A DNA stretch of 64,000 bases from Acorus gramineus (Eukaryota > Streptophyta > Magnoliopsida > Acorales > Acoraceae). Of this stretch, positions 329 to 43,850 are shown in pieces (within the stretch, counting starts at the first letter, position 1; every line of letters starts with the position of its first letter). The notes beneath the pieces were generated by a model. It was not told the origin of the DNA and did not search any database. It saw only the letters and a list, made by a program, of their open reading frames with translations. Where the stretch lies: the NCBI GenBank assembly GCA_030737835.1, contig JAUJYN010000069.1:246758-310757 (forward strand). Reading direction: 5' to 3'. The position numbers and the translations under genes are program-made.

Positions 329-1076
329 GGGATTTTTGCATATATATCCCTATTAAATGCCAATTTGGTCAAAATACCCGTGAAGAAACCCACAGTGCAA
401 AAATACCCTTCAAAATACTTTAAATGGGTATAACCGTACCCTTATACCACAAGCCGTGAAGAACCGTGGATTAACTATGATTAAAAAATCTTAGCTCCAC
501 ATGTACATTGACCTAAATGCCCTTATTCTGGAAAAAAAAAACTAACTTCTTCCCTGAAACCCTAGCCCCCCCTTGAATCTAAGTTCTCCTTTCTCTCCTG
601 AAACCATATCCCCCCCTCCTTCCATTTGATTGTAGATCGATCCCTCATCGCACTTTATTCATTCGAAACCCTAACCTAAACCCTAAATCATCGGTTTGAA
701 CACATTGTGATGAGAGGTGGTTGAAGAAGACTTTAGATCCATCAACAGTGGGTTTGGGAGAAAGAAGATGAGCTGAAAATTGTGTAAAAAGTGGGTTCCA
801 AAGAGTTGAAATGCCCTAGAATTGGTAGAGGAAGAAGATGAGATGGTTTAGAGAAGGGTTTGGATTGTTAAAATTGAGTAACCTGATGGTATAAGAGTCA
901 TTTGGGCTCCTCTACCAGAATGAAAACGTAGAATATTAATCATACCAGACGAAACTTGACCACAAAGGCACGGTTGCACTCACTTAAATTTTTTGAGGGG
1001 TATTTTTGCAATGTGAGTTTTTTCAGGGGCATTTTAACAAATTAGAATTTAACAGGAATATATATGTAAAAATCCC
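329..1076. mobile_element. Non-autonomous Mutator-like element, 748 bp
   Basis: The ends are inverted repeats of roughly 110 bp: the left end reads GGGATTTTTGCATATATATC and the right end is its near reverse complement. A 9-bp direct repeat, TAAATTTTA, flanks it at 320-328 and 1077-1085. Long terminal inverted repeats with a 9-bp target duplication are the hallmark of Mutator-like elements. There is no transposase. The interior has a CT-rich stretch and CCCTAA-containing sequence resembling a plant 5' leader, so it may hold captured host DNA. Confidence 0.85.
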
Positions 1077-1085
1077 TAAATTTTA

Positions 1086-1694
1086 TGATGACATAGTGTA
1101 GTTTTGTTTTGTGATTTTACATACCTCATTAGGTAACAACGCACGATCATATTTGTACTAATCATTATAAAATGGTTTGAGTGTAAAAACATTTTAATAC
1201 TTTTTTTGGTGTAAAAGTTGGGACATGACGACAATTCTCAATCATACAATACAAACACTACTAATATTGAATAAGCATAGATCACCAATAATACAAAATA
1301 TAAAGGGTGAATTGTCCATATGCCCCTGAACCAAGCCCCACATTATTTCCATGTCACTTAATCTTGGGAATTTTTTTTTTTTTTTGCCCCTCTTTTTTTA
1401 CCCTCATTGCCATCTCACATTTCCCTTCCACATTTACCATTTCCCTCCCATTTCTCTTTCCCTCCAACTTCTCCCCCAATCGACCGAAAAAACATCCCTA
1501 AATCCTCTCGGCTTCCCCAATCAAATTAGTAACACAATTCCCTTCTCATCTTCCCAACAAATCTATTCGGTAGCCTAGGTGATTACGAAAGCATCCCTCT
1601 CGTCTTCCCCCAATCGATTCGGAGGTTACGAAAGCACCCCCTTTCGTTGTTATCCTCTTCTTTCCCGGTAGCCTCTGTAGTTACAAAACCTCCT
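1086..1694. other. Pyrimidine-rich stretch without a recognisable gene
   Basis: Open frames exist here on the plus strand, but they are products of the T- and C-rich composition around 1370-1560 and show no domain. The stretch leads into the poly-C run and the TATA box at 1735, so it may be upstream DNA of a broken gene. Confidence 0.4.
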
Positions 1695-1722
1695 CCCCCC
1701 CCCCCCCCCCCCCCCCCCCCCC
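1695..1722. repeat. Poly-C run followed by (CA)n
   Basis: A run of 28 C residues is followed at once by a short (CA)n run to about 1734. Length will be unreliable in most assemblies. Confidence 0.9.
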
Positions 1723-1734
1723 ACACACACACAC

Positions 1735-1741
1735 TATAAAA
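1735..1741 (+). promoter_or_regulatory. Candidate TATA box
   Basis: TATAAAA lies 70 bp before an ATG at 1811. A CT- and A-rich leader of plant 5'-UTR type lies between. It is the only promoter-like signal in this part of the window. Confidence 0.4.
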
Positions 1742-1810
1742 GCCTCTCAAACCCTCTCATTGAAACCCAATACCAACATCTCAACCCTAACCCATCACCG
1801 TAACCTACAA

Positions 1811-1880
1811 ATGGTCGAATCCTCCAACAAAGCAGCCACCAAGAAGAAGAAGAAGAAGAAATATGTCAATCCGATGGGAG
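1811..1880 (+). CDS. Candidate first exon, Lys-rich N-terminus, gene unidentified
   Basis: An ATG starts MVESSNKAATKKKKKKKYV and continues to an exon end before GTATGC at 1881, a good donor. With the TATA box 70 bp upstream it looks like a genuine first exon. I cannot find a convincing second exon: the sequence after it runs into a minus-strand pseudogene by 2152. It may be an orphan exon left by rearrangement. The poly-Lys run gives no functional clue. Confidence 0.3.
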
Positions 1881-2151
1881 GTATGCAAGTTTTTACCTTC
1901 ATAGTTGCATAGCTCTAGGGTGAGGAACTCTTCCTAATTAGGTTTTTCATGAGTAGTTGAAATATTTCCTCTTTGCAAATTTCTAAAAGTCTATTATTCA
2001 TTTGGGTTGGCCTGGCCCTTTTGGAGATCTTTTCTTCATTGAAATCTTTTATGTATGGAATTCCCCAATCATTGCAGAGTCCTCTGAAAGATAAACATCC
2101 AGTTCTATCTCACCATCTTCATCTCAGGTTGCTGCAAATGGAAATTTAGTA

Positions 2152-3294
2152 TTATTGAGGGGTTGAGCCATGTGAAGGTGGCGATGGAGGTGGCGGCGGT
2201 AGCCCCATATTTCCCCCATCATTCCAGACTGCAAGAGCACACACAAACATCAGAGAAAAGCATTTAATCTAAATCAAAATGAGTGACATCCAAAATAATG
2301 CTTTATAAGTTACAAAACTTGCAACTGATTCAGGCAACGCTACGAGGTTTAGGAAGATAAATATCATAACAAATCATCATCGGGATCAACCGATTTAATT
2401 ACATAATTCATCCATAAATTTTGATGCTACATGTTTTGTGTCACTTGCCAATAAACTTTATTAATCAGATTGAAGCGCGTAAAATATGACAAGATTCAGC
2501 ATATTCAATTCAAAATATCCCAAGCGTACCTGGTAAGGAAGTCCTCGAATAGGTGCTAAATATCCACCTTGTGGCCTGTTATAGGCACCACCAAGTTGAT
2601 AATCCCTGGTGACATACCACTGGGAAGTTGTCCTGATCCGCATTGGAATCATCCCATGTGGCATTGGAGAAAACATCTGATTCACAGACCCTTGCAACAT
2701 CTAAAACCGAAACTCCAAATATTTGAAAGTCCCCAATGACAAATTTAGATGTAAAAAGAAGAGAAGAACCCACCATTGGATTGGGCATTGGCATCTGTAG
2801 AGTATTAGTCATCGTTGGCATCGAAGATTGGATGTTTGGGGGCATCCCTAGTTGGGGAGGTGGAGGACGAGGCATATGAGGGTGTGAGAGCAATGGCATA
2901 TGTGACGGAGGCTGCATCTGGGGAAAATTTGGAGGTGGCAATGGTAACAAGGGCATTTGTCGAGGCATATTTTGGAGATGATGAAGCTGTTGGTTAAGTT
3001 GCTGAGGAATTTGTTGATACATCTACTGTCCAGCAGCAGCCACGACTGACAGATGGGGTCCCGGTGGAAGTGGAGGTGCTCCCATAGGCATAATAGCTGG
3101 AAGAGGCTGTCTTTGTTCTCCTTGATCGGACCCATCAAGAGACTGAACTGCCAATGGCATTGCCATTCCAACACCAAGGATGGCTCCTTTGTTTCGTGTC
3201 AACCCACCAACAAATGGTCCTGGAGTAGGCGGAGCATCTGACATGGGAAAACCAGCCACCACATGACCAGCAACGGCATTTGGATCTCCATAAC
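2152..3294 (-). pseudogene. Broken C-terminal exons of a Pro/Met/Gln-rich protein
   Basis: Three minus-strand exons can be placed: 3294-2774, 2700-2530 and 2228-2152, each bounded by GT donors and AG acceptors. They encode low-complexity sequence rich in Pro, Met and Gln, with motifs such as MYQQIPQQLNQQLHHLQNMP, RPPPPQLGMPP and a Pro-rich end PPPPPSPPSHGSTPQ. Such tails occur in nuclear RNA-processing proteins, but I do not recognise the gene. The first exon has an in-frame TAG at 3023-3025, and the last needs a one-base shift near its GATGGGGGAAA run to reach the Pro-rich end. No upstream exons are visible, so this is a truncated, decayed copy. Confidence 0.5.
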
Positions 3295-4590
3295 CTGTAG
3301 AAAAGATTAGATGAGGAATTATGAGAATTCATTAACATGGAAGCATAAACAAAATCAGGGTAGGAAGACTTTATGATGAGATAGAAATCCAGTAGGAAAC
3401 GAACATATTTTTTTAAGGTTAGATAAAGTTTGCATTGATGTATCAAAAAAAAGTATAAGTACAGGTGAGGGTGTTTTATCCTATAATGAGGAAAATTAAA
3501 ATGCAAACATCCGACATTCCTACAGGAGTAAGGAACCTCTCCGTACACACAATCAGCATTATCATCATCATCATGATGATAAGGCTTCTATCTGTGCGAG
3601 CAACGGTGATGCAGATCGAAAAGATGAACAGAAGAACCTTCAAGAGAGAGAGAGAGAGAGGGCAAACCATTATTGCTTAACAAAACCATGAACTGTTGTC
3701 AAACGAGTCCAAAAGACATCTTGCAAACTCAAAGAAAAAACAATTTTAAAAATATCAATGACTTTTACAACTCTAATCAGGTCTATTTATATGCATTTAA
3801 GTTTGTTAATGTTGGATAATTACTAATCTAGATCTTCAACCACTCTCAACAAACAAATATATTAACTACATAAGAACTCAGTTTTTTCATAACTTAACCG
3901 CTCTTCATTCTAACAAACTCTAATAAACTTATTTCAAATCCACAGATGAAATATGTAGTAACAATAAAAAAATCACTATTATAATAGTGCGAGGGGATGA
4001 AGGGATCGTGTTCCAAAGCCTGGCTCCATTAAGCTGACATTAAGCAAGAGTTTAGTTCTAAAAAGAGATCAATGTGGCTGGATAGAACTGAAGGGTGTGC
4101 CGTAAGAAAATACTGGTTCTAAAATCTGTAGCGCCAGTTGTTCATTTCATCATGGGATAGTATGCACTATGCGGTTTGAGAGAATACTAAATTTACAATC
4201 ACTGGAATGCAGTCCTCAAGAGATCATTTTAATTGAAACCTGGACCATCAATGCTATGCAATATATAAACTACAACACAGAACTCATCGCTTTTCACATA
4301 ATATAAACATGTAATAATATATATATATTGATATTATTCAGGCACAATAAGAAACATTTTAACCCTCCACATAAACGATCTTGCATGCATGATCTGAGTT
4401 TGTCAAACCAGCAAAATGGAGTTTTACAGAGGTTCAGATCACAAGTAAAATATGTCCAAAATAAGAGTTAGGGTCTTTTTGAAAACACATATTGAAAAGT
4501 AGCTTTTGAAATAAAGCTGTTTTTTAAGATGATTTTAGACCTTGAATTTTATTATAATGTTTTGTTTTAATTCAGAAATCAATATTTGAA
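3295..4590. other. Non-coding stretch with short (GA)n
   Basis: I see no gene. There is a (GA)n run at 3643-3660 and a (TA)n run near 4316-4328. The rest is AT-rich unique-looking sequence, probably the former intron and upstream DNA of the pseudogene on its left. Confidence 0.4.
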
Positions 4591-11520: not shown

Positions 11521-12054
11521 GTCATATACATCATTAAAAATCCAATAAAACATATACACCGTTAGATAAGGTATATACATTATTAAAAAAAAATTTACGT
11601 TTCTTACAATGGGTTCATCAACTTGAAATGGAATAATATACACTTTACATTAAAACATATACCTCGTTAGATGACGTTTATTATCTTTTAAAAATAAAAA
11701 AATATGCAGTCTGAGTTTTAATTGTAAAAAGGCCTGAGTCTAACATTTTTTATTGGGCTATATCATAAGTTGTCCCGCTCCTATCCCCAAGACGACGACG
11801 CAGATTCTTGCCAATCTACCAGATCTCCTCACATGATATATTTTTCGTAGTACATCCTCACATAATTTGATTTTTAAGACGCATATTATATGTTTTTTTT
11901 TAAGTTAAACGGTAGGCGTCGTCTACTTAATCTATATTATCTATATTACTATATAAAAGTCTCTTAAACCAAAAACTTGCCTTTTAACCATTTTGCCCTT
12001 GTCAATTCATTCAATCCCATTACAGTCCATTCACACCACTTTAATGACAATCAT

Positions 12055-12500
12055 TTTTTCATTTTACCCCTACATTTCTATTCAATTCCATTAAAATCCA
12101 TTCACATCATTTTAATCTCATTTATAGTATACTATAATACATACATTTCATCATATAACATATTTATTAACTTATATTTAAAATTGGTTATCATAATATT
12201 AATAGGATACTCCTACATTTCTATTCAATCCCATGAAAATCCATTTACAACATTTTAATTTCATTCATAGTTTATTCTAATACATATATTTCATCATGTG
12301 ACATATTAACTTATAGTTAAAATTGGTTATCATAATATTATTAGGATAAGAGGATCCTTCCATTTTTTCATTTACCCCTACATTTCTATTCAATTCCATG
12401 AAAATCCATTTACAACATTTTAATTTCATTAATAGTTTATTCTAATACATATATTTCATCATGTAACATATTGATTAACTTATAATTTATTAATATTTGC
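12055..12500. repeat. Three tandem ~150-bp copies near the Helitron 5' end
   Basis: A unit containing CCTACATTTCTATTCAAT, CATTTTAAT and TCATAATATTA is repeated three times. A partial copy returns at about 23780-23950 near the other end, so this unit is probably a family-specific terminal sequence multiplied inside the element. Confidence 0.7.
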
Positions 12501-12620
12501 ATCCAAAAATGATAAATATATAAATTTATTTATTTAATATTTAATGTTCCCATAACTTTCATATTTGTTTAAATTAGGATATATATAAAAGATATAATGA
12601 AATCTATTCAAAGTTTGTAT

Positions 12621-13021
12621 ATAATTTGCATATTAGTTTATGAATAAAAATATGAAATCTATTTAAATTTTATCTTTAATTTGAATGTTAATTTCATTTT
12701 ATTCTTAATATTATCCAAAAGAAATTCTGAATACTAATGAGACGAGATTGTGTCCCATGATAATCCTTGATTATATTTTTTAAAAAAAATTTAAATTCAA
12801 ATGTGTTGCTTTAAATTTGGAATGGTAAAAATAAAGAACTAACCCAAAAAATTAATAATATTTGCATTCAAAATTTCTAACTAATAAATAAATAGATGTA
12901 ATTAATATTGGTAATGCTGCCTTTTTTTAAGTTGGAAAATTTTAACAATATATAGACAATATAATTACACAAAAATATTTACTTTTCCGTATTTCTAAAA
13001 AAATATTTCATCATTATGATT
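12621..13021. repeat. 401-bp direct repeat, copy 1
   Basis: Almost identical to 19086-19486 in the same orientation, with only a handful of differences by eye. The two copies bracket the helicase and Nopp140 fragments. Confidence 0.9.
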
Positions 13022-14386
13022 GTAATTATATATGTAAAATAAATTGTGAACAAATCCCATGTCACGCTTAATATGTATCTTACCTGTGGATCTTTTTTTA
13101 ATTTTATTAAAATGTCTATATCTATTGTATACAACTTATATATATACTTTCATTTGACACTTTTATCATTTCCAAACAATAGAAATCTATATTTATTTAA
13201 GCATGTTAATTATTGAAAAAAAAATCTAAATATGATTCGAATCCGTATCTGAAATATTAGAAATATTCGATATTCGAATATCTGGAGTGCAGATCTCGAT
13301 ATCAGTCTATCCGATCCAAAAAATATCTGTATCTGACATATATTATAAATATATATATATACATATTTGTATTATATATTGCCCATATTGTTATAAATTA
13401 ATATGATAATATATTATATTACTATTAAATTTTTAATATATAATATCTGAAAAAAAAAACCTTATACTCTCAATTTTAATTTTGATATCTCACTAAAATA
13501 TCATTTGATTATACGAATTAATGTTAATATTCAGACATATCAATTATTCTAAAAATATCTGATTTATATCTAAAAATATCTGAATCTCAAAATTAATATT
13601 CGTATTAGATTCCAAAGTTAGGATATAATAGTATCACATCGAAGCCGGTTGGTTTCTTCCACTTACTCTTTCAACTACCCATTTTGGTCCCACATGCCCA
13701 GATAATTAGATAAAAACCGGGGACTGTATTCAATTTATTCATTGATACATCATTTTTTTTTTTTTCGATTGAATTTATTCAATTGATTCTCTCTAGCCTC
13801 AACATTTATTGATGGGAAAACGAGGAGTCCCCCATTCCGCCATTCGTTTTAGGAAATATCACAAAATGAAAAAAAACATTGCATATATAATTAGATTAAT
13901 ATATTTATTAACTTATAATTAAATTTGGATATCATAATATATTAGCAGGATAAAAAGATGCTTATAAAATAAAAATATATTCAAAATATAAATTTTAGAA
14001 TATATTTTATATTACGTATATTTTATGATATATATATATATATAATACATATATATATCATAAAATCATATTAATAATTTACATAAATTACATGTATTTG
14101 AATATATCCATCTATACTTCAAAATCTATATCTATATTTATATAAAAGCCCTTTTTATTTTTTAAGTTTACATTTATCAATCTCTGCAAACCCATGTTAG
14201 TCCTAAATCCATTCTTCTCATGTGGACCCTTCGTCTTCCGTGCCCCTTACTGGCGCCATTGATGTTCAGTGAATCTATCCAGTCCCAAACCATTTTTCAC
14301 CCATCCATTATATTTGATTAATTATGGTTAAATGTAAAACCCTTCAAATTCACATAAAAAGTGGGAGCAGAGAAAGTGATCCTGCA
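13022..14386. other. AT-rich Helitron interior without a gene
   Basis: Very AT-rich, with a (TA)n-like patch at 14028-14045. A segment at about 13225-13340 containing CGAATCCGTATCTGAAATAT is inversely repeated at about 22675-22775. No coding signal is seen. Confidence 0.5.
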
Positions 14387-14728
14387 ATGGAGGAGGCTGG
14401 AAACGAACGGCGTTCAAGTATTTGGGCATCTGCGACGATCTCTTCGAGGCCAGCGAGAAGATCGTATGGAAGACCGCCTCAAAATCCCAAGCCGAAGCCA
14501 TCCCTCTCGCGCTTCAAGGTTTGTCAAAGTCTGTAGATTCTCCATCTAGAGTTTGTACATACAAAACATAAGGGGCTTCTTTTGGTGGATCTGTTGTTCA
14601 GGGAAGGATTTGATTGGGCTCGCGTAGAATGGGTCAAGAAAGACCAGGAGCTTTCCAATCGCTTCCTGAGGTAGTGTGCGATAAGAGAAACCCACGGCTT
14701 TCTTCATATTCATGCTTTACCCAACGAG
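14387..14728 (+). pseudogene. DEAD-box RNA helicase fragment (RH10-like), broken
   Basis: Two exons are visible: 14387-14518 (donor GTTTGT) and 14602-14728 (acceptor TTCAG, donor GTTTGC). They encode the Q-motif and motif-I part of a DEAD-box helicase: FKYLGICDDLFEASEKIVWK, SQAEAIPLALQ, then GKDLIGLA. After that the Gln expected in GLAQTGSGKT is a stop, and the P-loop reads NGSRKT. FMLYPTR matches the LSPTR of motif Ia after a frame change. A frame change also separates the ATG from the Q-motif. It resembles plant RH10/Rrp3-type nucleolar helicases and cannot function. It lies inside the Helitron, on the same strand as the Nopp140 fragment. Confidence 0.75.
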
Positions 14729-15128
14729 GTTTGCATTTTTATTTTTAATTGGGTTCCTGAATCATTGGTTGAATTGGTGTTGATGAAGATCTCTCAATAG
14801 GGTTTGAATTGTTGATTTGTTATATTAGGAAATTGGCCATTCAAATTTCTGAGAATTGGCGCATTTGAATGCCATCATGATTTTCATTGGCGCATCAGTC
14901 GTAAATGCGCAGTGGTGGTTCTTTTTATTAATCTTAGGTACATGTTTCCTAGAGTTTTATTAAGATTATATTTATAGCATGGTGAAATATTGAAATATCA
15001 TATCAATTTTTTTTTTATTATATTCTATTGGGATTGGATTGCTGGCGTATATATCTTTATATGTAATATGCAATTTTGGGGATTTATAAGACAATTCATT
15101 TTGCCAATCTTTTGACATCCCAAAACAG
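14729..15128. other. Non-coding spacer between captured gene fragments
   Basis: Probably intron or filler DNA. I see no exon with splice signals here. Confidence 0.4.
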
Positions 15129-16546
15129 TCAGTCCATTTCAAAGAGTGAAGGTGAATGAAGTGGAATTTGCTGACGAGAGGCTTCAAAAAAATTCGTATT
15201 GGGCAAAGGTATATTGCTTACAGTATGAGTTTTCTTCTGTCAATTTGATTAATTCAAATGATTGTTAACAGATTTTTTTATTTCTTGAGCATCGGTTTGC
15301 AGGAGGGTGCAAATGGTGGATACAATGCAAAAGCTCAGGAAACTCTTGGGCAAGTTAGAGGATTTTTTTTTTTTTTCTGAATTCTAATGTGGATCTTTCC
15401 TGACATGTACATAAAGCTAATGCAAATATGCATGCACGTTTGTTAGAAATTTGTATTGATAATTTTTTTTACATATTTGTTTACTAAAAGTTTTTTGCTG
15501 AAAAGAAAAATATTTTAGGACCTGGCCTACAGATCTAAAAGTTCTGACTTTTGACTGTCTTCCATTTTGAAGTTTACATTACACCCTGTGATGATAAATG
15601 AGGGAAATTTGCATGTGTTTATGAGTTTCATTTTGGTTACTACGCCTTGTTTGTGAATATTAAAGCTCAGTCAATTTTCAGGAACTGCAAGATACTTGAT
15701 ACAATTACGTGTTCCTTGAGCCACCTCCATAATAGTACTATTATCAGATAACAAAACATGTAATTTTGATTTTATTTGAAGTACATCTAACTATTCCAAA
15801 AGCTAAGCCATTAGCCAAAGTTTTTCAATGAGTCATGTGATTTAATAAACTATTCTTTTATGTATCTAACGTAATGATTCCTTCAATATTATATATAATG
15901 TTATAAAAGGCAACTCTGACCACTTAGTAGGTGATTCTCATGCACGTCCGTAAATGATGTTTCTCAATTTAATATAAAAGTGAATACTATTATCATGCAC
16001 TTTGGCCCTTTGAAAGAATAATTGGTTTAGAAGTGAGCGTGAGGAAGATTTTTTTTTTTTTTGGACCCAAAATATTCCTTTGATCTGATTCATCCACATG
16101 AGAAATTAAAATTCCTTTGAAAATAAGGGCTCAATATGATAATCATTCTTGTTCTTCTTCTGTTGGAGCACACAAGTAAATTACATTTAAAATTCTTCAT
16201 TCTTGTGGTCATTCTAGATATCCTACATAAAATTTCTCTGATTTTTCCTTCTTAAAATCTATTAGAATTAGATATTTGTGAAAAAAAGTTATCCTTTTTA
16301 ACCATAGTTGTTAGAAGACTTCTGAATCTGAGTTATCAAATTGACTCTAAATCATGGGAGTTGATTTCAAAATTCAATGTTCATTTCATGTCTATTTTTT
16401 ATGAGTTAATTAGTCATGCATGAAGTATGAAAACTGATGCATGGATTCTCTCTTCTTTCTTTAAGGGATTTCTGGCAGCACATACAGGGGCGGTATTATC
16501 GATTTGCACTTACACTATAACCTTTAATTACTCCGATGATGATTGA
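15129..16546 (+). pseudogene. Nopp140/SRP40 C-terminal domain fragment, broken
   Basis: Exon pieces at about 15129-15208 (donor GTATAT), 15303-15353 and 16465-16546 encode the SRP40 C-terminal domain. They read PFQRVKVNEVEFADERLQKN then SYWAK, next EGANGGYNAKAQETLGQ, and finally a TYRGG-like stretch and FNYSDDD before TGA. In intact plant homologues the same order is followed by a lysine-rich HEKTKKKRG segment before SYRGG; that segment is missing here, and the last exon needs a frame change. Nopp140/SRP40 proteins act in the nucleolus as chaperones of snoRNPs. This is a captured relic inside the Helitron, with its introns. Confidence 0.75.
15354..16464. other. Intron-like sequence of the Nopp140 relic
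   Basis: AT-rich sequence between recognisable exon pieces, with long T runs (about 15363-15376 and 16050-16062). No independent gene is seen. Confidence 0.5.
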
Positions 16547-17198
16547 AGTGATGGAGTTTTCTATCTTCATTCTTCAATTCAGAAGAGAAGCTCAGTGCCT
16601 CCAAATTTGAGTAAGTATTACGAATTTTGTTTCAAACTCAATTTATTTAATGATGATAGATACTTGTTAGTGGAAAGAGTTTTTTTTGTCATGATTCATA
16701 TTTTTTTAATCCTGATCATCTAATAGAAGTCACTTGGGTAGAATGCATTATATATTTGAATGAATATTTCTAATGGGTTTAAGTTATGTTTAATTTCATT
16801 TGATATTTTGCCTGTATAAATTAATGCGTAGTTCGTATGCGTCCTTTTTCATATGAAATGAAATGAACTTTAACTTGAAGGGATAAATTTTGTTTCTTAA
16901 TTATACTTATTATTAGAATGTTAAGCTCTAAAAAATCTTGATTATTATTATGGTTTTGTGGATAGATTATAGATTATTGCCTTTGACCCCTATTTACGCT
17001 GACAGATATAACATCATGATAATTTTTTTTTTTATTTGACAAATCACTCCTTTATGAGTAAAAGAATACTCTAAAAAAATGTAATCATGCTGTCTTTATG
17101 TAATGTAGTCCCTGACCCCCCCCCCCTCTAGCGTGGAACATAAGACCAGAATAATAAAGAACAGATGAGAATAGCTAAAAAAAATTGTTTGTTTTGAT

Positions 17199-17622
17199 AG
17201 AATAAATCCCGATAGTTATGTCTAGATAAGCTAGGATAAAGCCTGATAACTATTCTAAGGAAATGTTGGAATTGCTTATCAAGGCTTATCTATGTCAATG
17301 GATAAAAATACTCTTCTCTGTCATTTTAAAAAATTTATCTCACCTAAAAGACTCACACAGATTCTAAAAACTGTCACATCTATCAAATCAATCATATATC
17401 TCTTACACTATTCCCAGGGGGTATAATTGTCATTTAAAAAATCATAAACTCTTATTCATCCCTTATCAATCATTTATCATCACTTTATCCAAGGTGAATC
17501 AAACAACAAAAAAGTCATTTTTACGTTTCTCAATGAGAATAACAAAAAAGATAACCAAACAAAAAGTTGCTTATTCAGCCTGGATTGTTATCTATTCCAG
17601 TATAACTATCGAGAGCGAATAA
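17199..17622. mobile_element. MITE-like inverted-repeat element
   Basis: The left end (GAATAAATCCCGATAGTTAT) and the reverse complement of the right end (both with CGATAGTTAT and a downstream CCTG/CCAGGCTGA) are similar over about 50 bp. The interior has TAATTGTCATTTAAAA and AT-rich sequence, and no ORF. Target duplications are unclear. Confidence 0.5.
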
Positions 17623-19085
17623 CCTAATATCACACCCCATACGGGGGTAACTCTCTATGTTACTTAACGAAAAAATTGTTTTAATTTTTGGATGATTTGT
17701 ATGTGAAATATGAAAATTTGTACATATAATATATTTATATTCACATAATTTTTTAATGTGAATTGTGAATAATGTTCACAATCTTAATAATGTATCAGTG
17801 TCACTCCACTAACATCTTCCTACTCCTTTAATCCTCTTCGAAGCAAAATTTATAATTTTTAACAAAAAATTAGTTTAGATTTTTTGACAAAATTTGCATC
17901 ATATAATGATAATGCATTGATTTCCTCTATTATTTCAATGAATAAACTTATGTTTAGATTACTCGAACGAGATTTTTCAATCATTTTTTGATGGAGGAAC
18001 CTTTTTGATGAATGTATATATTAGAAAAAAAAACAGCACCATTGTTTAGTCAGTAAATTTATATAAAAACATTTCATGCAAATCTTATGAAATATTCATG
18101 AATTTTTGTTTCACAATGTTCTTTTGTGTGTTGCAAAATAAATAAATATCTTCCACATGATAATTCACTTTTTCATAATTTAAGAATTCATTTGATTCGC
18201 GGATGATAATTAAAACTCAGGTTAAAAACATATACACATACAACACTGATGACCAAGTATTTGAAGCCGTAAAAACATGTTTGGACACATTTTAGAGATT
18301 CTATTTTTACAAGAATAATACTTAAATAGATAATTGTTCATAAGCGCCAACAAAAAGTGGCTTTTAATTATAAGACATAATTTATGAATTGAAAAAAAAA
18401 AAGGTTTTTGAGAAGTTATTTTGGAACCAATGTTCTTTGAAGACATCACCGTTCGATGCGAGAATATTCCTGATAGAGACCACGCAACCGATGGATTTGT
18501 TATGATTGGAAAGGAATGCCAATCAATTCAAATCATTGATATCACATTTAATTAGATCTAGACCACCATTCATTTGACTGTAACCCTAAAATATAGGTTA
18601 ATATTATTTTCCTTTTCTTCCTCTCATTCTCCACCTCCATCGCAGACCAATCGGATCGAACCCTAAATCGAAGTTAATTTATTTTTCCATTTCTACCTCT
18701 CATTGTCGACCTCCAGTGCAGATCAATTGGTCGGACTCAGGAGGAGATACTTTTTATGTGAATTGTTCAATGGGATTTTCGATTGTGAGCTCATGAAATG
18801 AATTTTTTTTCAGTGGTTCAAACTTTGCTCTAAGATGAAAAGATGTGATCTTTAGTGGTAATTTTTTATTGTATGAGAGCTTGGTTAATGGGAGGGGTTC
18901 CAATTGGGGTTTGGACTTGGAAGAACAATGTTAAAGTGAACTGAGAATCTAAAGATTTGGGAGCTTCATTGATGGGAGGGATTTTTGAATTATAATATAA
19001 TATATTTTTGAATTATATACAATGGAATATATATGATTAGTTTAGTAAATTTGTGAATCAATGAATAAAAACTTTTCAAATCTCT
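17623..19085. other. Helitron interior without an identified gene
   Basis: Mostly AT-rich. At 18600-18740 a ~60-bp CT-rich unit (CCTCTCATTCTCCACCTCCA) occurs twice in tandem and is leader-like; the DNA after it could be a fragment of an unidentified gene. No convincing exon is seen. Confidence 0.4.
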
Positions 19086-19486
19086 ATAATTTGCATATTA
19101 GTTTATGAATAAAAATATGAAATCTATTTAAATTTTATCTTTAATTTGAATGTTAATTTCATTTTATTCTGAATATTATCCAAAAGAAATTCTGAATACT
19201 AATGAGACGAGATTGTGTCCCATGATAATCCTTGATTATATTTTTTTAAAAAAATTTAAATTCAAATGTGTTGCTTTAAATTTGGAATGGTAAAAATAAA
19301 GAACTAACCCAAAAAATTAATAATATTTGCATTCAAAATTTCTAACTAATAAATAAATAGATGTAATTAATATTGGTAATGCTGCCTTTTTTTAAGTTGG
19401 AAAATTTTAACAATATATAGACAATATAATTACACAAAAATATTTACTTTTCCATATTTCTAAAAAAATATTTCATCATTATGATT
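19086..19486. repeat. 401-bp direct repeat, copy 2
   Basis: Second copy of 12621-13021, same orientation, 6465 bp downstream. High similarity implies a recent duplication within the Helitron or gene conversion between copies. Confidence 0.9.
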
Positions 19487-19568
19487 ACACAAAAATTGTA
19501 CTCCTTTATTTAATTACTTTGGAAGCTTTTTAGTCAGGTAATAACAAGTTTTTTTTTTCATTTTGATA

Positions 19569-19869
19569 ATGCGGAGCATCAATCAAAACTATACCATTCT
19601 CTTGGCAATTGCTGTTGGAATTAAACAGAATCAAAATGGAACACCATACTCTGTAAGGTTGTTTTATGCATCCTGTTATGTTCTATTAGCTGGATATTTG
19701 GAAAAAGAAAATTTATATAATAATAATGCTTTCTTTTAGTCCAATTTCATTTGTTGAATTGCTCCATAATACTTTCCCATTATGTAGAAAATGTGGATAA
19801 ATGGCGTGATCTTCAATGGAGTCATGGGGCAAGACATATACTAGCTCACAACTAGACAAAGTGGTAGAG
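19569..19869 (+). pseudogene. DUF707 protein fragment, broken
   Basis: An exon at 19569-19652 encodes MRSINQNYTILLAIAVGIKQ and ends at a good donor GTAAGG. A second at 19788-19869 (acceptor TGTAG) encodes NVDKWRDLQWSHGARHILAH, then N-stop-TKW-stop. Plant DUF707 proteins contain LLA(L/M)AVGIKQK and later VDxWxDLxWSxxAIHI-A-NQTKWWF in this order, so Gln and Trp of NQTKWW are the two stops. The central part between the blocks is shortened. The family is of unknown biochemical role, probably Golgi-associated. Third captured gene relic in the Helitron, again on the plus strand. Confidence 0.6.
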
Positions 19870-20184
19870 ATTATTTATTTTATTTATAATCAAGAAATCT
19901 ATTGAATGGAGATAACTTTTTATCATCATTCCTATTTTCATACCACCATTGATCAGTGGATTGCAAGAGAAAAATAGTTAAACAGTTGAATGATAGCCAG
20001 CATGGCTGAAGCATGAAGTACATGAACTGTTTTCTTAAGCATTCCCCTTTCTTATTTCTTGAAACTGTAGAGTCTCTTTGGAAAGTTGTAATTGTTATAG
20101 TTTCTTTGGCATATGTGATGGATATCACTATAGTTCTAAGTGTGGTTGGTAGAAGATCAGTAATTTCTTTGTAATGATCCTATT

Positions 20185-20525
20185 GTATCATAAAAAAAAA
20201 AATAGATATTTAGGAGAAGTAACAAAGTTTGGATGTAGTAGGACATAAGTACAAGAATATCTATTTCACAATTTAAATAATACATTTTCTTCGTATTATT
20301 GTATTATCATAATAACATTGAAACAAACAGTTTTTGTTGCTGGTATATTGGGTTGTAAAAGAAAAAAAAAAAGATATTTGGGAGAATTAACAAAGTTTGC
20401 ATTTAGTAGGAAATAAGAACAAGAATATCTATTTGACATTTTAAGTTATACATTTTCTTCATTTCATTGTATAATCATCATAACATTGAAACAAACAATT
20501 TTCAATACTGGGATTTCTGTTTAGT
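20185..20525. repeat. Tandem duplication of a ~175-bp unit
   Basis: Two adjacent copies beginning in an A run, then AGATATTT, AACAAAGTTTG, CAAGAATATCTATTT and ending CATTGAAACAAACA, about 85-90% alike by eye. Confidence 0.8.
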
Positions 20526-22800
20526 AATTTCATTGATGCACTAACATGTTAATCATTGAGGTATTATGTTATCCCTTCTAACTTTTAGTAGTGTTTGAAA
20601 GTAAAAGTATCTGCAACCGATTCAACCTTCTTATAGGCTTGTAATTTCCTAGATGAATCATGGTTCCCAAAGTTTACTTTGATTATAGCTCAAATCACAA
20701 TACTAATTTTTTCCAGACAAACTACCATAACAATGTTCCTTTGGTTACACCTCTTTTTACTTGGAATTTTATGAATTTCATGTAGGCACGCACTGCGGTT
20801 TATGACAAATTAACAAGATCTATCACCTAAGGAATTATCACTTTAATTTTCATGTGTGCTCATATGAGGATGATCGTAAGTTTTGCTTTATTTTTTTATT
20901 TACGCTTCTACACAAAAATATCATGCCACATGAATTTTTGACATTCTTCAATTTATGTTACTCTTTTTAAACAAGGAACAATAGGCCAACACATTACCTT
21001 GTGTTGTTTGATGAGATTGGATTCAACAGATGATCTTCAAGAGCCCGTCCATTCTCTCTCTATATGTAAGTAAACTAGCTTCTTCTCTTTCTTTATTTTT
21101 TTATAGGGTTATCTTTTCTCTCTTAATTTTTTTTGAACTGATGCTCCTCCATTGATGTATTAAAAGGGTGACCAAGATTAAATTTTTCAATCAAGAAATA
21201 CACAATGAATAATTGATTAGTAATTTAAAAGGGTGATCGTTAAAGTCATTTATCAATTAGAGTAAATCAAAATTCTCATTGAATGATAAAAAATTGCACA
21301 GTTATGAAATTAATCATGTTGTTACATGAGAATTTGAAGGTCAACTTATGAATTTGAAATGCATTGATGAGAAATTTAAAATATTATTTAATTTTTTTTA
21401 TTGGACCATTAAAGAAAGAAAATGATTTTTATAATGGATTTTCAAAACAGTCAGATTAATTAGACATTTATGATAGACATTTAGGTCTATGTCATCAATA
21501 AGTGGTCTATTTCATAATGAAGAAATGAATTGCCATTCAATTTCATTCCCATAAATGAATGCATTATTTACATATGTGGTCTCTTTAAAATTTTCATTCT
21601 ATTGGGAAGGCTCATGAAATATTATTTATTTATTTATTTTTTAGATTGATACCTCCATAATGTGATCATTGATAATCCTTTATATAGAATGAGTGCTAAC
21701 CAATTTTTCTAAAGCTCGGTTCGCTTTTGCAATAAATATTGTGCTTCTATTTCTTCCTTATGTATATAAACATAGATAAGTTATATATGAATTATATCTT
21801 GATTGACGCCATGAGTGTAAATGTGTGACATCCTTTATTTTTTGTTTGGATTACGTTTTGATGTTTTTATTGGAAGTGCATAAGAACTTCAACTTCAGAA
21901 TAACTAATAGTTAGGGCATCTATGATAGATTTTAAATGTATAGCACCTAATTTTTTTGCAACCAAATTCTTTTTTTTTATCAAATAATAATTATGTATTT
22001 TCGTCTTTTATGACATTAAATATTAAAAAGTAATATACCGGTATTTGGTGTTTTTATGTGGCTTTAATGATATTATTTGGAATATTTGTCAAAATTAAGT
22101 AACATTATTAAATTAGATTTATTTCTATAATATGCATGAACTCTTTGATTTCTTTGCCATGAAAATAGAGAATTTTGTTGAAAGAGAAGATAGGTATGCT
22201 TCATACCATTGATTTATAGTTCATAGGAAATCAATAATCATGACTAATGCTTATTTATTACATGTCAACAGGATAATAGTCATAATTATATATTACCGAA
22301 TTCCTTAACAAAATGTTCTTAGATTTTTTAAAAGATGAAACTATTGTGAATAATGAGTAGAGGACCGCATATAGGAGTCACTCATTGTTATTTGTTGTTT
22401 CTTTGATTTAATTTGGAAAATCAAAATGAAGGGGGTGTATCTAACAGAAAAAGTTGATATCTTAATTAATGTAAGTGGTAATTATTATGTACTAAATTAA
22501 ATTACTTTATATCAATGCGTCTCAAAATTATATTAAACTTTTTTTTTTATTTTTTTTTTCATATTATAAATTAAATACACGTGTTAAAATATGCAGTACA
22601 CCATTTCATATTATGCATTAATAAATTATTTATAATGATATAAATATGCATTTAAATGTGATGATACACATATATTTTTTTTTTATCGGATAGACTAATA
22701 TTCATATCCGCATTCTAGGTCTTCGAATATAGGATATTTCTTATATTTCGGATACGGATTCGGTAACTCAGTATTGTGTCGTTTATTATCAAATATTTGT
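20526..22800. other. AT-rich Helitron interior
   Basis: No exon recognised. Contains the inverted partner (about 22675-22775) of the 13.2-kb segment. Confidence 0.4.
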
Positions 22801-24240
22801 AAAAGGAGGACACATATGTAACACCAAAATTGTTGAGTCAACACCAAGGTATTTAATTGTCTCTTAAAAAATTATTGATGTTAGTTATCACAAAGTAATG
22901 CAACATCAAAAAAATTTGATTGAGTAGTGCTTTAATTACATATGCAGTTTATTTGATTTTCTTATTCTCATACTTAGTTAAAAAAAACTATTGATCTAGC
23001 CATTGCTTTCTGTTTTCATTTTTCAAGAACGATCATATAGATTTTCTTCTCTAACAATTGTATTATTTTTTCTTTTCATGTCTTATTTTTTTTTAATTAT
23101 TATTGTGGATGATGGAACATTGTAATATTTTGAATGTTGTATGGGAATTTTTAACTTATGAGAGCATTGTATAATTTAGAATGGTGGTACAACATTTGTT
23201 TTCTTATTTTTCTTGTTTTCTTATGAAAGCATGGTACGACATTATACAATATTTTAAATAGTTTTTATTTTTGATTTTCACATTTTAAAAAGAATGGGAT
23301 AAGATATTTTAATTATTTTATGATATTTATTTTACCTTCATTTATTAATGACTTTACCTTCTTATATTTTTATTACAGTGTATTATTATTGGCTTCTTCT
23401 CCAGCAACATCATATTCTATTTTCAAACCATTTTTCAACCAAAACAAGTAAGTTTTCAACATCCTTGAATATAATTATTAAACAACAAAATTTAATTAAA
23501 TTAATTCCATGTATGCCCTTCATTCAAGTATTTGAAGGGTTTTGTTACATGAAATCCAATGTAATGGATATGAGCCCTAACAACTTTGCTTCCTCAAAGA
23601 GCAAGAGTTTATGTTTATTGTTGTATTTAAATGATTTATTTATTTATTGTACATGTAGGTGTCATACAACATATATATACCTACTACAATGTAGAGAAAT
23701 AAAGTTGCGGTAATTTACTGATAATGATATAGGTAGTTTAGTTTTATAATAATTTTACCTGTGCAATTCTATTAATCAAACCCGTGAAAATCCATTCACA
23801 TCATTGTAATTTCATTCATAATTTATTTCAATACATACATTTATTGTATCTTTATATGATGACTAATTTAAATGTATCATAAAATAATATTAATAAATTA
23901 CATCATTTATATTAAATTTACATTAATATATATATTTAATAACTTATAAGCAAATTTCAGAATCACGTAGATAAAGGGATGCTTATAAAATGAAAGTGTT
24001 TTCAATATTTAATGATGTTAGTTATCTCAAAGTAATGCATTATCAAACTTTTTTATATTGAGTAATGCTTTAATTACATATGTAGTTGATTTGATTTTCT
24101 TATTCTTCGTACATTAGTTAAAAAAAATATTAATATGTCCATTGTCTTTTGTTTTATTTTACAAGAGTGATCTTATAGACTAGGTTTCTCTACTAACAAT
24201 TTTTTTTTCTTTTCATGTCTCATGTTTTTCTTATTTTTAT
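22801..24240. repeat. Direct repeat of ~220 bp, about 1.2 kb apart
   Basis: A segment starting near 22873 (GATGTTAGTTATCACAAAGT) recurs near 24014 with substitutions (GATGTTAGTTATCTCAAAGT). Each is followed by matching TTTTCATGTCT and GGATG-TGGAACATTGTAAT stretches. Between them lies the partial copy of the 5'-end unit. Confidence 0.7.
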
Positions 24241-24792
24241 GTTTTGGATGGTGGAACATTGTAATATTTTAAATGTTGTATGAGCATTTTTAACTTATTA
24301 GAGTATTGTAATATTTAGATTGGGTGTAAGACGTTTAATTTCTTGCATGAGAATATGAATTTTATTTTTTTATATAATTTTATGTTTGTTACATATATGA
24401 CATTATTATAAGAAAAAATATATGTGTGTACCAATAATTATAAGAATAATTAAATTATCCTTAAATGATATATGACATCTACTGCTTTGAAGACAATTAC
24501 TAGGGGCAAGATTATTAGAGCTATACATATAAGTATGCCAGAATGACTAATTAAGAAAAACATAACATCTCCACTTAATAAATCAAAATCATGTTTGTTT
24601 ATGGAGCATTGATGAATGATTATATGATAATAAGTTTATTGTTTTTTCATGTTTCACACTATTATTTTTATCATTTGACTTGGTAAACTATAGACATTAG
24701 AATCATTATATTTAGAGTCAATATCATGAAAATGTTATTGTAACTAAATTTTTAAACATTAATATTACTCCAAACATATATTACATTTTGTC

Positions 24793-24822
24793 TATGTGCA
24801 TTTGCACATACACAACAACTAG
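24793..24822 (+). terminator. Helitron 3' terminal hairpin and CTAG
   Basis: TATGTGCATTTGCACATA folds into a perfect 7-bp stem with a 4-base loop, followed by CACAACAA and CTAG. Helitron ends are defined by such a hairpin shortly before CTRR, inserted before T, which is what is seen. Confidence 0.85.
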
Positions 24823-25310
24823 TTTAATTAAGAGGGCCCAAAAGACGTATATTATATGTTAGGAGCAGTTTCCCCCGCTCATTTTTAAGTGGAACAATTA
24901 GAGGAGTCAAGGGATGATGCATGGTTTGTGGGAAGGGCACAAATTGTTTGGTAACACACAGCAGGGAGGCATAGATTGTTTGGTTTGTATAAAAGATAGC
25001 TGAATTTATTTGGATAGACATATAATTTCAGTTATTGGCTAAGTCATTTGATATATATGAAAGTAGTTTTTAGTTTTTCTTTTAGCAAAGAATGTCATTT
25101 AACTCAATGAGATTCACCTACTCATTGCATATAAATGTGAAAAACAAAAACATGTATTTTATCATTTCTTTTATAGAATTCAAATGGGTGCATAATTAGT
25201 TGTTTGATTATTTTGTTTGATTATTATTATTATTTTGACAATATATTATAATTTTCATCAACTTTTATGGTTTCTATGAAAGTCAAATATGCCCTACTTT
25301 ATTTTTCGAA
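24823..25310. other. Non-coding sequence right of the Helitron
   Basis: No gene seen. The words next to the two Helitron junctions (AGACGCATATTATATG left, AGACGTATATTATATG right) are similar, which may be chance. Confidence 0.4.
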
Positions 25311-25641
25311 TCCGGATTCAGTTAAAACTAGCTTCAGTCAATCCTGTATGTACCGAACTGTACAGCTCATTTATCAAACTATACATCCTATGAATTGAAC
25401 TGCAAAGTCAATTGTTGAGTATATGTTCCACTCTCTTATTGAATACCAATGATATTTAGGAATCCATATGTGGGCACAATCAATATGAATTCCTAAATAT
25501 CATTAGTACCTAATAAGAGAGTGGAACATGTATGCAACAATTGACTGTATAGTTCGATTCATAGGCTGTGTAGTTTGATCAGTAAATTGTACAGTTTGGT
25601 ATTAACAGGACTAACCGAAGCCATTCTTGAGTAGATCCGGA
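25311..25641. mobile_element. Foldback MITE, ~330 bp long hairpin
   Basis: Two arms of about 150 bp are reverse complements, centred near 25475: TATTTAGGAATCCATATG on the left and its inverse ATGAATTCCTAAATATCAT on the right. Similarity runs outward to TCCGGAT / ATCCGGA at the ends. There is almost no spacer, so a transcript would fold into one long hairpin. Confidence 0.85.
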
Positions 25642-39317: not shown

Positions 39318-42300
39318 TAGAAATTAAAAAACCCTAGTTTTTTTTTCTTTTTTGGAATCCTTCGCCGTCGCCGTCGTAGTCGTGCCCTTGCCGTCGCCGT
39401 CGCCGTCGTGCCCCTGCCGTCCCCGTCGTACCCCTGCCGTCCCCGTTGCCGTCGTGCCCTTGCGGCTGCCGTCGCCGCCCCTGCCGCTGACCCGCGCCAC
39501 CCTGCCGCTACGCGCGCAGCCCTGTCCTGCCGCGCCCAGCCCTGCCCTGCCCGGTGCCCTGCCGCGCGCCTTGCTGCGCCCTGCCCTGCCGCGTGCCCAG
39601 CTCTGCCCTGCCAGGTGCCCTGCCCGGTGCCCTGCTACGCCGTGCCCCGCCGCGCCCAGCCCTGCCGCGTGCCCTGCCCTGCCACGCGCCCTGCCGCGTC
39701 GTGCCCTGCCGCGCGTTTGTCCCTGCCCTGATTACCCGGGATCTGTCGCGCCCGACAAATCTGCCCGGGCACTGATCCGATGATCCTACCCAGATTTCCC
39801 AGGATTTGCTGGGACTGCTCGTGCCAGCCTGTATTGGGTGTTCTGGATCGTCTCGAGCACCTGACCCGACACCCAACCCGGATCCTGCCTAGCGACCCGA
39901 CCGGGACCCTGCCCAGCGACCCAACCCGGACCCTGCCCAGCGAACCCGACCCGACCCTGGCGCTGCCCAGCGACCCGACCCGGATCCTTCCCAGCGACCC
40001 GACCGAGATCCTGCCCAGCGAACCCGGCCCGACACTGCCCCGCGAACCCGGCCCGACACCCGACCCGAGTCCGACCTCAGGTCAACTCCGGCCGCCCTCC
40101 GGCTCCTCCGGCCGCCCGCCGCCACCTCCGGCACCTCCTTGAGACTCCGAATCACTAAATCGGTTATAACTTTCTCTCCGGAAGTCCGATTAAGGTGATC
40201 CAGGAGTCCATTTTGCTCGATTTTTCGTGCTCTACGTCCTCGTCTGCTTCTGATCCTCATCCGAGTGGTTCTGCACAATGTCAGAAACCAACGGCAACCC
40301 TACTCTTCCGACACCGGCGGCTTCGAAGGTATCTCGTCAGTCTACTTCGTCATTTATCTATGAGGGCATCTTGGGGGCCGCTCCTGCTACGAAAGACAAC
40401 GACCTTCTAAGCAGTGTTATCAACCGAAAGGCCGAGGACATCATCTTCCTCCTATTGTTGCTACGACTGCTACTTCGATTGCCTCCATTCAGTCACACTC
40501 GGATATGCTTGTCCAGATCAGTCAGCGCCTAGACCACCTGATTCTGCAGCAGTCACTTTCTGGTGCTTCTACTCCCTTTGCCTTGTCTTCTACTATGGGT
40601 ACTCCTGCTTATTGGATTTTTATTCGGGTGCCTCACATCACATGACTCCTGATAGTTCTATCCTCACTGCATGCTCACCTGCACCCTCACACCTCCCTTC
40701 GATTCATACTGCTAATGGCTCTCCTTTAGTCATCACGCAGTGTGGATCGATCACCACCACATCCCACCCTACTGGCCGCCTTTCATTACCATTTGTTTTG
40801 CATGCTCCTGAGCTTTGCATGAATCTTGTGTCTATTAGTAGATTGTGTGATTCTGGATTCACCATTACCTTTACCTCTTCTGGGTGTTCTGTGCAGGATC
40901 CACGTTCAGGGCAGAGGATTGGTGTTGGTCGTCGGATTGGCGGACTGTATTATGTGGAGTATCTTTATCTTCCTGTACCTGATCCCTCAGTTTTCTGTGG
41001 CACTGTCACCTCTGATACTGACTTGTGGCATAAGAGGTTAGGTCATGTTTCTGAATCTCGTCTTAAAGACCTTATTAAGTCTGGTGATTTAGGTCATGTT
41101 TCTTTCTCTCCTCTTTCTGTTTGTGAGGGCTGTAAATTAGCCAAACCTGTTGCTACTCCATTCCATTCTAGTAATCATCAGTCCTCTAGTCCATTTGAGC
41201 TTGTTCATTCTGATATCTGGGGTCCTTCTCATATCACGTCAAAGTGGTTTTTCGTATTATATCAGTTTTATTGATGACTATTCTCGCTTTACCTGGATTT
41301 ATTTATTGCGTCATCGATCTGAGGTCCCAAAGATATATGAGGTCTTTACCACTATGATTCACACCCAGTTTCAGACTCGTATCAAAATCTTTAGGTCTGA
41401 TTGTGCTCGAGAATATATTTCTTCCACGATGCGTTCTCTTCTTCAATCTCATGGCACTCTCTTTCAGCAATCATGCCCTTATACTCATGAGCAGAATGGT
41501 GTTGCTGAAAGAAAACATCGCCATATTCTTGAGACCGCTCGTTCCCTCTTACTTTCTTCTTCAGTCCCCAGCACATACTGGGCTGAGGCTGCTCTTCTAT
41601 CTGTTCATCTTATCAATATCACTCCCTCTTCTGTCCTCTCCGGTATGACTCCTCATGAGCGCCTTTACTCCTCCAAACCTGATTATAGCAGACTTCGCAC
41701 TTTTGGATGTACTTGTTTCGTGCTTCTCCCTCCTCATCAACGCACTAAGTTGGCCGCTCGGTCAGTTAAGTGTGTATTCTTGGGGATTAGTTTCGAACAC
41801 AAGGGATATCGCTGCTACGATCCTATTGGAGATCGTTTTTGGATAGCTCGTCATGTGTCATTTGTCGAAGATGTTCCCTATTTTTCTTCTACACCCACTG
41901 CCTCCTCTCCTCCGGTGCCTTCTCCTGTTCAGGCCTCTCCTATTGAGTCTCTACCTCTTCTCGGGCCGTCTGTTCTGCTTGAGCCCACTCCTAGTTCTGT
42001 TCTCCCTGAGTCTCATCTTGGCATTCCCACTGCTGACTCTCCTGGTTCTTCGTCTCCTCTTCACACTCCTGCAGCCAACTGGTCCTCCCTGTTCTCCTCC
42101 TATTGTGTCTCCTCTTGCTCCTTCCGCAGATGACTCCGCTGGTACTCCGTCTTCCACGGCTAACACACCTCCCTCTGATGTGGATCCTCGTCCCTTGACT
42201 CGCTACCCTCAGCGTGAACGTCATCCGCCTGATCGTTTCAGTTTTGACTCTGGACCACTTGACCGATTTGGCTTTGCATCAGTGAGTACCTATTCTCCAG

Positions 42301-43850
42301 AATTCCAGGCCTATCTCACCGCTATACATGCCCATCGTGAGCCCCGATCTTATCGAGAGGCAGTCGAGTACCCTGAGTGGCAGCAGGCCATGGCTGAGGA
42401 GTTTCAGGCGTTTGAGCAGACACAGACCTGGGATGTTGTTCCCCTTCCGGATGGTGTTACCCCTATCAGCTGCAAGTGGATTTTCAAGATCAAGCATCGC
42501 CCTGATGGTTCCATTGAACGACATAAGGCTCGTCTTGTTGCCAGAGGTTTCACTCAAGAGTATGGCATTGACTATGAGGAGACCTTTGCTCCTGTTGCTC
42601 AGATGACTACTGTTCGCACCCTTCTCGCCGTTGCTGCTGTTCGTCGCTGGCCTCTCTTTCAGATGGACGTGAAGAATGCTTTTCTTCATGGTGATTTATC
42701 TGAGGTTGTTTATATGCAACCACCTCCAGGTCTCAGCACTCCTCCTCAGCATGTTTGTCGTCTTCGGCGGGCTATATACGGACTGAAACAAGCTCCTCGT
42801 GCCTGGTTTGAGCGTTTTCGCAGTGTTATTCTGACAGCTGGTTTTGTTGAGAGCCACCAGGACCACTCTATGTTTGTGCGATCCTCATCGCAGGGGCGGG
42901 TAATCCTTCTTCTGTATGTTGACGACATGATTATAACTGGCGATGACTCCGCTGGTATTACTCGGGTCAAGAATCACCTCAGTCGACAGTTTCAGATGAA
43001 AGATCTTGGTACTCTTCGCTACTTCCTTGGTCTCGAGATTGCACAGAGTGATCGTGGGATTCTGCTTTCTCAACAGAAGTATACAGCTGACATTTTAGAG
43101 CGTGCTGCTCTCCGATACCCGCAGTGCGGATACTCCTCTCGAGCTTAATGTGAAGCTTCGTCCTACGGATGGTGAGCTCCTCTCAGATCCTACTCGATAC
43201 AGACAGATCGTGGGTCAGCTTGTGTATCTCTGCATCACTAGACCTGACATTGCTCATGCCGTCAGTATTGTTAGTCAGTTTGTCTCGGCTCCTCGATCAG
43301 TGCATTATGGTGCTCTTATGCGAATTCTTAGATATTTGCGTGGTACTATCACTAGATCGATCTATCTGTCATCCTCTTCGACTCTGGTTCTCAGGGCTTA
43401 CACTGATGCTGATTGGGCTGGAGACCCGACCACTAGACGCTCCACCACTGGTTTCTGCATATTTCTCGGAGATTCTATCATCTCTTGGCGCAGCAAGAAA
43501 CAGGAGGTTGTTTCTCTTTCCAGCACTGAGGCTGAATATCGAGCCATGGCTATCACCACCAAGGAGATTGTTCATCTCAGATCTAGGAGTTACTATGACT
43601 GGTCGTACTCCTCTTCACTGTGATAACCGGTCTGCTATTCAGATTGCTAGCAATCCGGTCTTTCATGAGAGGACCAAACACATTGAGATCGATTGTCACT
43701 TCGTTCGTCAGCACTTTCTTGCAGAGACATTATCGCTTCCGCATATCTCCTCTGCTGAGCAGCTTGCTGATTTCTTTACGAAGTCACATCCAATTCCTCG
43801 ATTTCAGTTTCTTCTTCGCAAACTCACTTTGTATGATCCACCGTGAGTTT

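Follow-up and report, generated by a model that had tools for sequence, protein, structure and literature searches.

The window analysed in this study, 64,000 nucleotides of Acorus gramineus DNA (GenBank assembly GCA_030737835.1, contig JAUJYN010000069.1, forward-strand positions 246,758 to 310,757; here C107:246758-310757), contains a large composite Helitron that carries pieces of host genes. We regard it as nearly certain that positions 11931-24822 are a non-autonomous Helitron with these ends, and by sequence likeness the element holds relics of at least four unrelated host genes, namely RH10/DDX47, SRP40/Nopp140, DUF707 and ARGONAUTE (Table 1). The best reading of its origin, to which we give a probability of roughly 0.7, is that pieces were captured stepwise, nested Helitrons fused, internal sequence was deleted and the product was amplified, as in maize Helitrons. 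The genes of the window, a Ty1-copia-like element in it and the Helitrons suggest nuclear DNA of a plant. All genome searches covered the 398.6 Mb, in 137 contigs, of this assembly (G000).

When the two 300-bp flanks of the element were joined, they matched full length (over 600 bp) at three unoccupied places in the same genome: C2:27669497 (99%), C2:27644576 (97%) and, on the reverse strand, C25:33086 (96%). The junction reads CTACTTAATTAATTAAGAGGG (longer, CTACTTAATTAATTAAG) in two of these empty sites and CTACATAATTAATTAAGAGGG (CTACATAATTAATTAAG) in the other. Together the three sites place the boundaries, between A and TC at 11931 and between CTAG and T at 24822, to within 1 nt, with insertion between A and T and no target duplication in any of them. 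The direct repeat AAGACGYATATTATATGTT that flanks the element (11876 and 24842) might be taken for a target duplication, but this reading was rejected, the repeat being already present in the empty sites; the score of this pair was reached by 0 of 500 shuffles but by 2 of 1000 real pairs at equal spacing.

Both ends of the element recur elsewhere. Its first 130 bp and its last 101 bp each match at least 40 places in the genome, four of the matches listed for the 3′ end, the window included, being at 100%, and multiple copies share both ends at unrelated sites. Sisters on C25 and C6 run over about 12.86 kb at 98.77% and 98.86% identity, respectively; a copy at C4:13.926 Mb lacks 19167-20766, and hence DUF707, and one at C107:334424 extends past the contig end. 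The original prediction had claimed a large Helitron with these ends and coordinates and had set sister copies and empty-site boundaries beforehand as tests that could refute it; both checks were run, and both agree with it. It is scarcely credible that the stretch is a local nest of Helitrons inserted into each other instead of one mobile unit, a view for which the internal second 5′ end and the repetition of module A (the 5′ segment common to other Helitrons) can be cited, since C6:3.08 Mb carries the composite too, as does C4:13.93 Mb in a form with a deletion, both flanks being different there, and since the empty sites lack the whole composite.

The C25 sister (C25:16570-29491; L013/L014) has the left flank of the window copy and, from exactly after CTAG, an unrelated right flank, which matches C2:14796053-14796440 (94%), where the preceding base is A. 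Ectopic exchange, upstream transduction and misassembly are candidate explanations of this mixture.

The start of the element can be refined by comparing copies with empty sites. The unit TCTATATTA is present twice in the window element, followed by TATATAAAAG, and other copies carry between one and three units, some of them incomplete, so that by the copies alone the start is either 11931 or 11940; the empty sites contain no TCTATATTA, which favours 11931. The window has a single match to the 5′ motif (11940-11959; 0.11 expected, at least one in 10 of 100 shuffles). A precedes TC at the 5′ end in nine of ten loci compared, the window locus included, and the tenth (C2d, L030) is a junction at which, on the reverse strand near 9507, two Helitrons stand head-to-tail: CTAG, then TTATTATTATTATTAC and TATATAAAAGTCTC. 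At the 3′ end, a hairpin with an 8-bp stem and a 2-nt loop lies 8 nt upstream of CTAG (24819-24822), with T next, and TGTGCATTTGCACA followed by 10 nt and CTAGT, scanned with up to three mismatches, occurs once in the window (24795-24823; 0.02 expected). A hairpin before CTRRT alone is common, a looser scan giving 13 plus-strand and at least 13 minus-strand sites in the window, with the end at 24822 ranked second on the plus strand. CTAG is followed by T in all 15 of the 3′ ends compared, at loci picked by likeness and the CTRR pattern, the T lying outside both query and pattern. Inside the element no further 3′ end resembling its last 100 bp was found above the score used, and short terminal inverted repeats were not seen by eye, with no dedicated search made.

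Host gene capture, with introns kept in plus-strand relics, had been claimed before and is borne out by DNA alignments to the likely parents, which cross exons and introns alike. The three fragments named then are real, but the number is at least four, as the ARGONAUTE piece at 20605-21090 had been missed. By eye, the RH10 relic comprises exons 1-3, which are interrupted by stops and frameshifts; 39 of its residues match DDX47 (E 1.4e-5, phmmer against PDB), and the RH10 gene at C5:16.83 Mb is 67% identical to 14411-14853 and 84% to 14892-14929. The peptide REGFDWARVEWVKKDQELSNRFLR, considered as a separate protein, was rejected (best E 1.1, no credible relative); in another frame this stretch is, by eye, the RH10 exon 2 relic. 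Two SRP40 exons joined match Pfam SRP40_C (E 2.9e-10, 41.3 bits versus a cutoff of 28.6), one exon alone reaching E 0.00087, under the cutoff. The SRP40 gene on C2 (3.13 Mb; L044, L059) is 77-87% identical to 15013-17053 and 81% to 17648-17738, and its C1 paralogue is less similar to the element (72-75%). Farther down C2, with order and orientation kept, 18087-18353 matches at 82%, which indicates that the SRP40 donor took in 3′ flanking DNA. For DUF707, the joined pieces reach E 8e-5 and 22.4 bits in Pfam, under the cutoff of 24.1, and a DUF707-like gene on C100 has 68-76% DNA identity to 19493-20173. The ARGONAUTE locus at C1:0.73 Mb, whose joined exons encode a Piwi domain (Pfam E 1.6e-35), is 76% identical to 20605-20759 and 74% to 20811-21090. 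A composite of the relic matches Argonaute 10 (E 2.4e-4), a value favoured by the choice of frames according to likeness to the C1 locus, and two single-frame pieces of the relic gave no Pfam match. The ARGONAUTE family acts in RNA silencing, and at 74-76% DNA identity the relic is unlikely to give rise to small RNAs matching the gene.

Identity to the parents thus differs among the relics (RH10 67%, DUF707 68-76%, ARGONAUTE 74-76%, SRP40 77-87%), which fits separate captures. The original prediction had suggested that the two nucleolar parents, RH10 and SRP40, were neighbours at the donor locus. That suggestion is not supported: they lie at C5:16.83 Mb and C2:3.13 Mb, on different chromosome-sized contigs (30.7 and 32.8 Mb, respectively); the two genes may have been linked in an ancestor. 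Of the other two parent contigs, C1 is of 30 to 33 Mb and C100 is an unplaced contig of 345 kb. RH10 and SRP40 are adjacent at eight places in the genome, five as in the window and three with about 740 bp extra between them, which speaks for a single capture by one Helitron from one donor block of neighbouring parents. Such an event is nevertheless very improbable, given parents on four contigs (C5, C2, C100 and C1), an SRP40 donor that takes in its own downstream DNA on C2, the unequal identities and the existence of DUF707 loci without an RH10/SRP40 match.

Partial relatives in the same genome may stand in for intermediates. Among 94 matches listed for 12600-14110, six stop exactly at 13882, the end of module A, and at a C33 locus (L039) likeness to the element starts at 14118, close to the internal second 5′ end, the upstream DNA being different. 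A search with the RH10/SRP40 stretch, in which 27 of 27 candidates were scored, included loci at C33, C6:17.52 Mb and C7:1.16 Mb with 737-741 bp extra between RH10 and SRP40; at the only one tested (L040) much of this extra matches the SRP40 gene, and in the window element about 740 bp is gone between two T runs. Module A with DUF707, without an RH10/SRP40 match, is found at C4:13.76-13.77 Mb (reverse strand), C1:21.82 Mb and C7:1.27 Mb (DUF707 partial), and at two other loci, C2c and C1c, the DUF707 piece extends about 270 bp beyond 19493 on the upstream side. At C7:1.158-1.172 Mb the order, by match positions, is module A, RH10, SRP40, module A, DUF707 and 20515 onward.

The preferred history of stepwise capture and fusion would involve two lineages, both presumably moving by rolling-circle transposition. 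One, with the 5′ module A and the present 3′ end, would have taken up the DUF707 and ARGONAUTE pieces; the other, beginning at what is now 14125, would have taken up RH10, SRP40 and the SRP40 3′ flank. One lineage may then have come to lie inside or beside the other, and a transposition that started at the outer 5′ end and stopped at the 3′ end downstream would have fused both. The fused product would later have lost, by deletion, the bulk of the second module A, some of the DUF707 piece and 740 bp from SRP40, and would then have been amplified, probably mobilised in trans by the Rep/helicase of other Helitrons in the genome. Instead of transposition across nested elements, recombination among Helitron copies, or gene conversion, could have produced the order of module A, second lineage and module A. 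The long near-identical stretches common to the copies argue for this, as does the mixture of flanks at the C25 sister, which is expected from ectopic exchange but also from misassembly; we consider it unlikely, although worth keeping in view, as the C7 order with its fuller second module A is the expected look of a nested ancestor.

Several observations weigh against capture and fusion as set out above. The window flanks with the element excised read CTACTTAATTTAATTAAGAGGG (longer, CTACTTAATTTAATTAAG), so that the filled site, once its ends are joined, has one T extra compared with the empty sites. The inner 5′ end is supported by one locus (L039), and at three others (L036, L038, L041) likeness continues upstream to 13889 or beyond. 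The C7 order is drawn from the positions of matches and a single short locus. The RH10 relic is only 67% like its parent, which makes a closer, unseen donor possible. The supply of enzyme is a further difficulty. Rep/helicase coding is confined to autonomous Helitrons, and non-autonomous members lack it by definition. A Pfam scan of two of the three plus-strand frames gave no families, and the Rep domain (PF14214) has no match on C107 and 44 genome-wide, some being pieces of one gene. Among the termini listed, drawn from 40 scored candidates for each end, none lies closer than 42 kb to any of the 44 Rep matches, and an autonomous partner sharing these ends was not found. A Rep match at C11:11178403 is 14.8 kb from a module A match on the opposite strand (11193164); it could point the way to an autonomous relative.

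As a kind, the composite gene-capturing Helitron is already known, and the window element is an additional example. A single genome supplies the empty sites, the sisters, the parents and the partial intermediates, which makes the case well documented, and the element provides a clear case history of a Helitron gathering pieces of unrelated genes. With likely donors, partial relatives, sisters and unoccupied targets in one assembly, sequence alone is enough to test in what order capture, fusion and deletion took place. Pack-TYPE and Pack-MULE elements are bounded by terminal inverted repeats and flanked by target duplications. The window element differs from them in that its empty sites show no target duplication. 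It resembles them (PMC8903248) in being a non-autonomous plant element bearing host gene pieces. Helraiser and Helibat1 (PMC4778049) have 5′-TC and CTAG-3′ ends with a palindrome close before the 3′ end, as seen here, and read-through beyond the 3′ end has been demonstrated for Helraiser as a capture route; Helraiser encodes RepHel, unlike the window element, for which there is no Rep domain match. In the account of maize helA Helitrons (Dong et al., 2011; PMC3288121), fragments were captured stepwise, some from different chromosomes, 17.6% of helAs have internal pseudo 5′ termini, and internal sequence is lost; multiple termini stem from nested Helitrons, and fusion by transposition across the nest is a model. 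The window element is similar to helA, so described (PMC3288121), in its several fragments, internal 5′ end and internal loss. It differs in belonging to another plant and family, in having no internal 3′ terminus found and in its large size of 12.9 kb, about 80% of helAs (1,253 of 1,515) being 100 bp to 10 kb in the same account (PMC3288121).

Table 1. Features of the composite Helitron, in window coordinates
Feature	Position	Strand	Basis
Composite non-autonomous Helitron, 12,892 bp	11931..24822	+	Empty sites; sister copies
5′ terminus TCTATATTA TCTATATTAC TATATAAAAG	11931..11959	+	Motif scan, copies
5′ module A, common to other Helitrons	11931..13882	+	Genome matches
Internal second Helitron-like 5′ end TCTATATCTATATTTATATAAAAG	14125..14148	+	Motif, locus comparison
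RH10/DDX47 DEAD-box helicase relic	14380..14990 (outer limits approximate)	+	phmmer, DNA alignment 14411-14929
SRP40/Nopp140 relic, C-terminal exons and introns	15013..17053	+	Pfam, DNA alignment
Insertion lacking in SRP40 parent, MITE-like (miniature inverted-repeat transposable element)	17054..17647		Alignment to C2 parent
SRP40 donor block, continued	17648..18353	+	17648-17738 and 18087-18353 match C2 downstream of gene
300-bp module, alone at three other places at 97-99%	18745..19044		Genome matches
Remnant (426 bp) of second module A copy, 97.4% identical to 12596-13021	19064..19486	+	Self-comparison
DUF707 relic, two exons and intron	19493..20173	+	Pfam, DNA alignment
ARGONAUTE relic, PIWI domain, introns kept	20605..21090	+	DNA alignment, protein search
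Subterminal duplication, 22864-23205 versus 24001-24344, 80%	22864..24344	+	Self-comparison
3′ terminus: hairpin TATGTGCATTTGCACATA, 8 nt, CTAG	24793..24822	+	Motif scan, hairpin scan, copies

A tentative further suggestion, which we hold to be somewhat less probable than its opposite, is that two Helitron lineages in this genome took up the C-terminal exon of SRP40 separately, in at least two independent events. Over the 99-bp exon the window element is 92% like the C2 SRP40 gene, and a copy at C5:28.68 Mb resembles each of the two SRP40 genes at 81% and the window element at 78%; over about 165-198 aligned columns the same three comparisons give 87%, 65-66% and 63%. Among the ends listed, the exon lies about 1.1 kb upstream of a 3′ end of the window Helitron family in 4 of 13 places, an SRP40-like stretch at C2:3083626 (72 bp, 85%) being excluded from the 13. 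If true, repeated capture would point to a hot spot or preference for the SRP40 gene.

Other observations concern the element and its surroundings. Searches of the window for tRNA and Rfam families gave no matches. For the MITE-like insertion, a simple scan revealed no clean inverted repeats; stretches related to it lie near window positions 30.2, 31.5 and 33.3 kb. Between the DUF707 relic and the ARGONAUTE relic there are 1.8 copies of a 168-bp repeat unit (20194-20502). Upstream of the element, window positions 1001-4000 match C2:27629385 at 99% and C107:323464 at 98%; the latter belongs to a 75.7-kb duplication within C107 (247758-258388 and 323464-334126), both duplicates of which hold the Helitron with an identical left junction. 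Immediately to the right of the element there is an inverted repeat (25311-25641) with arms of 159 nt, 79% complementary and 13 nt apart, and reading frames resembling a Ty1-copia retroelement were recognised by eye at about 40400-43850 of the window.

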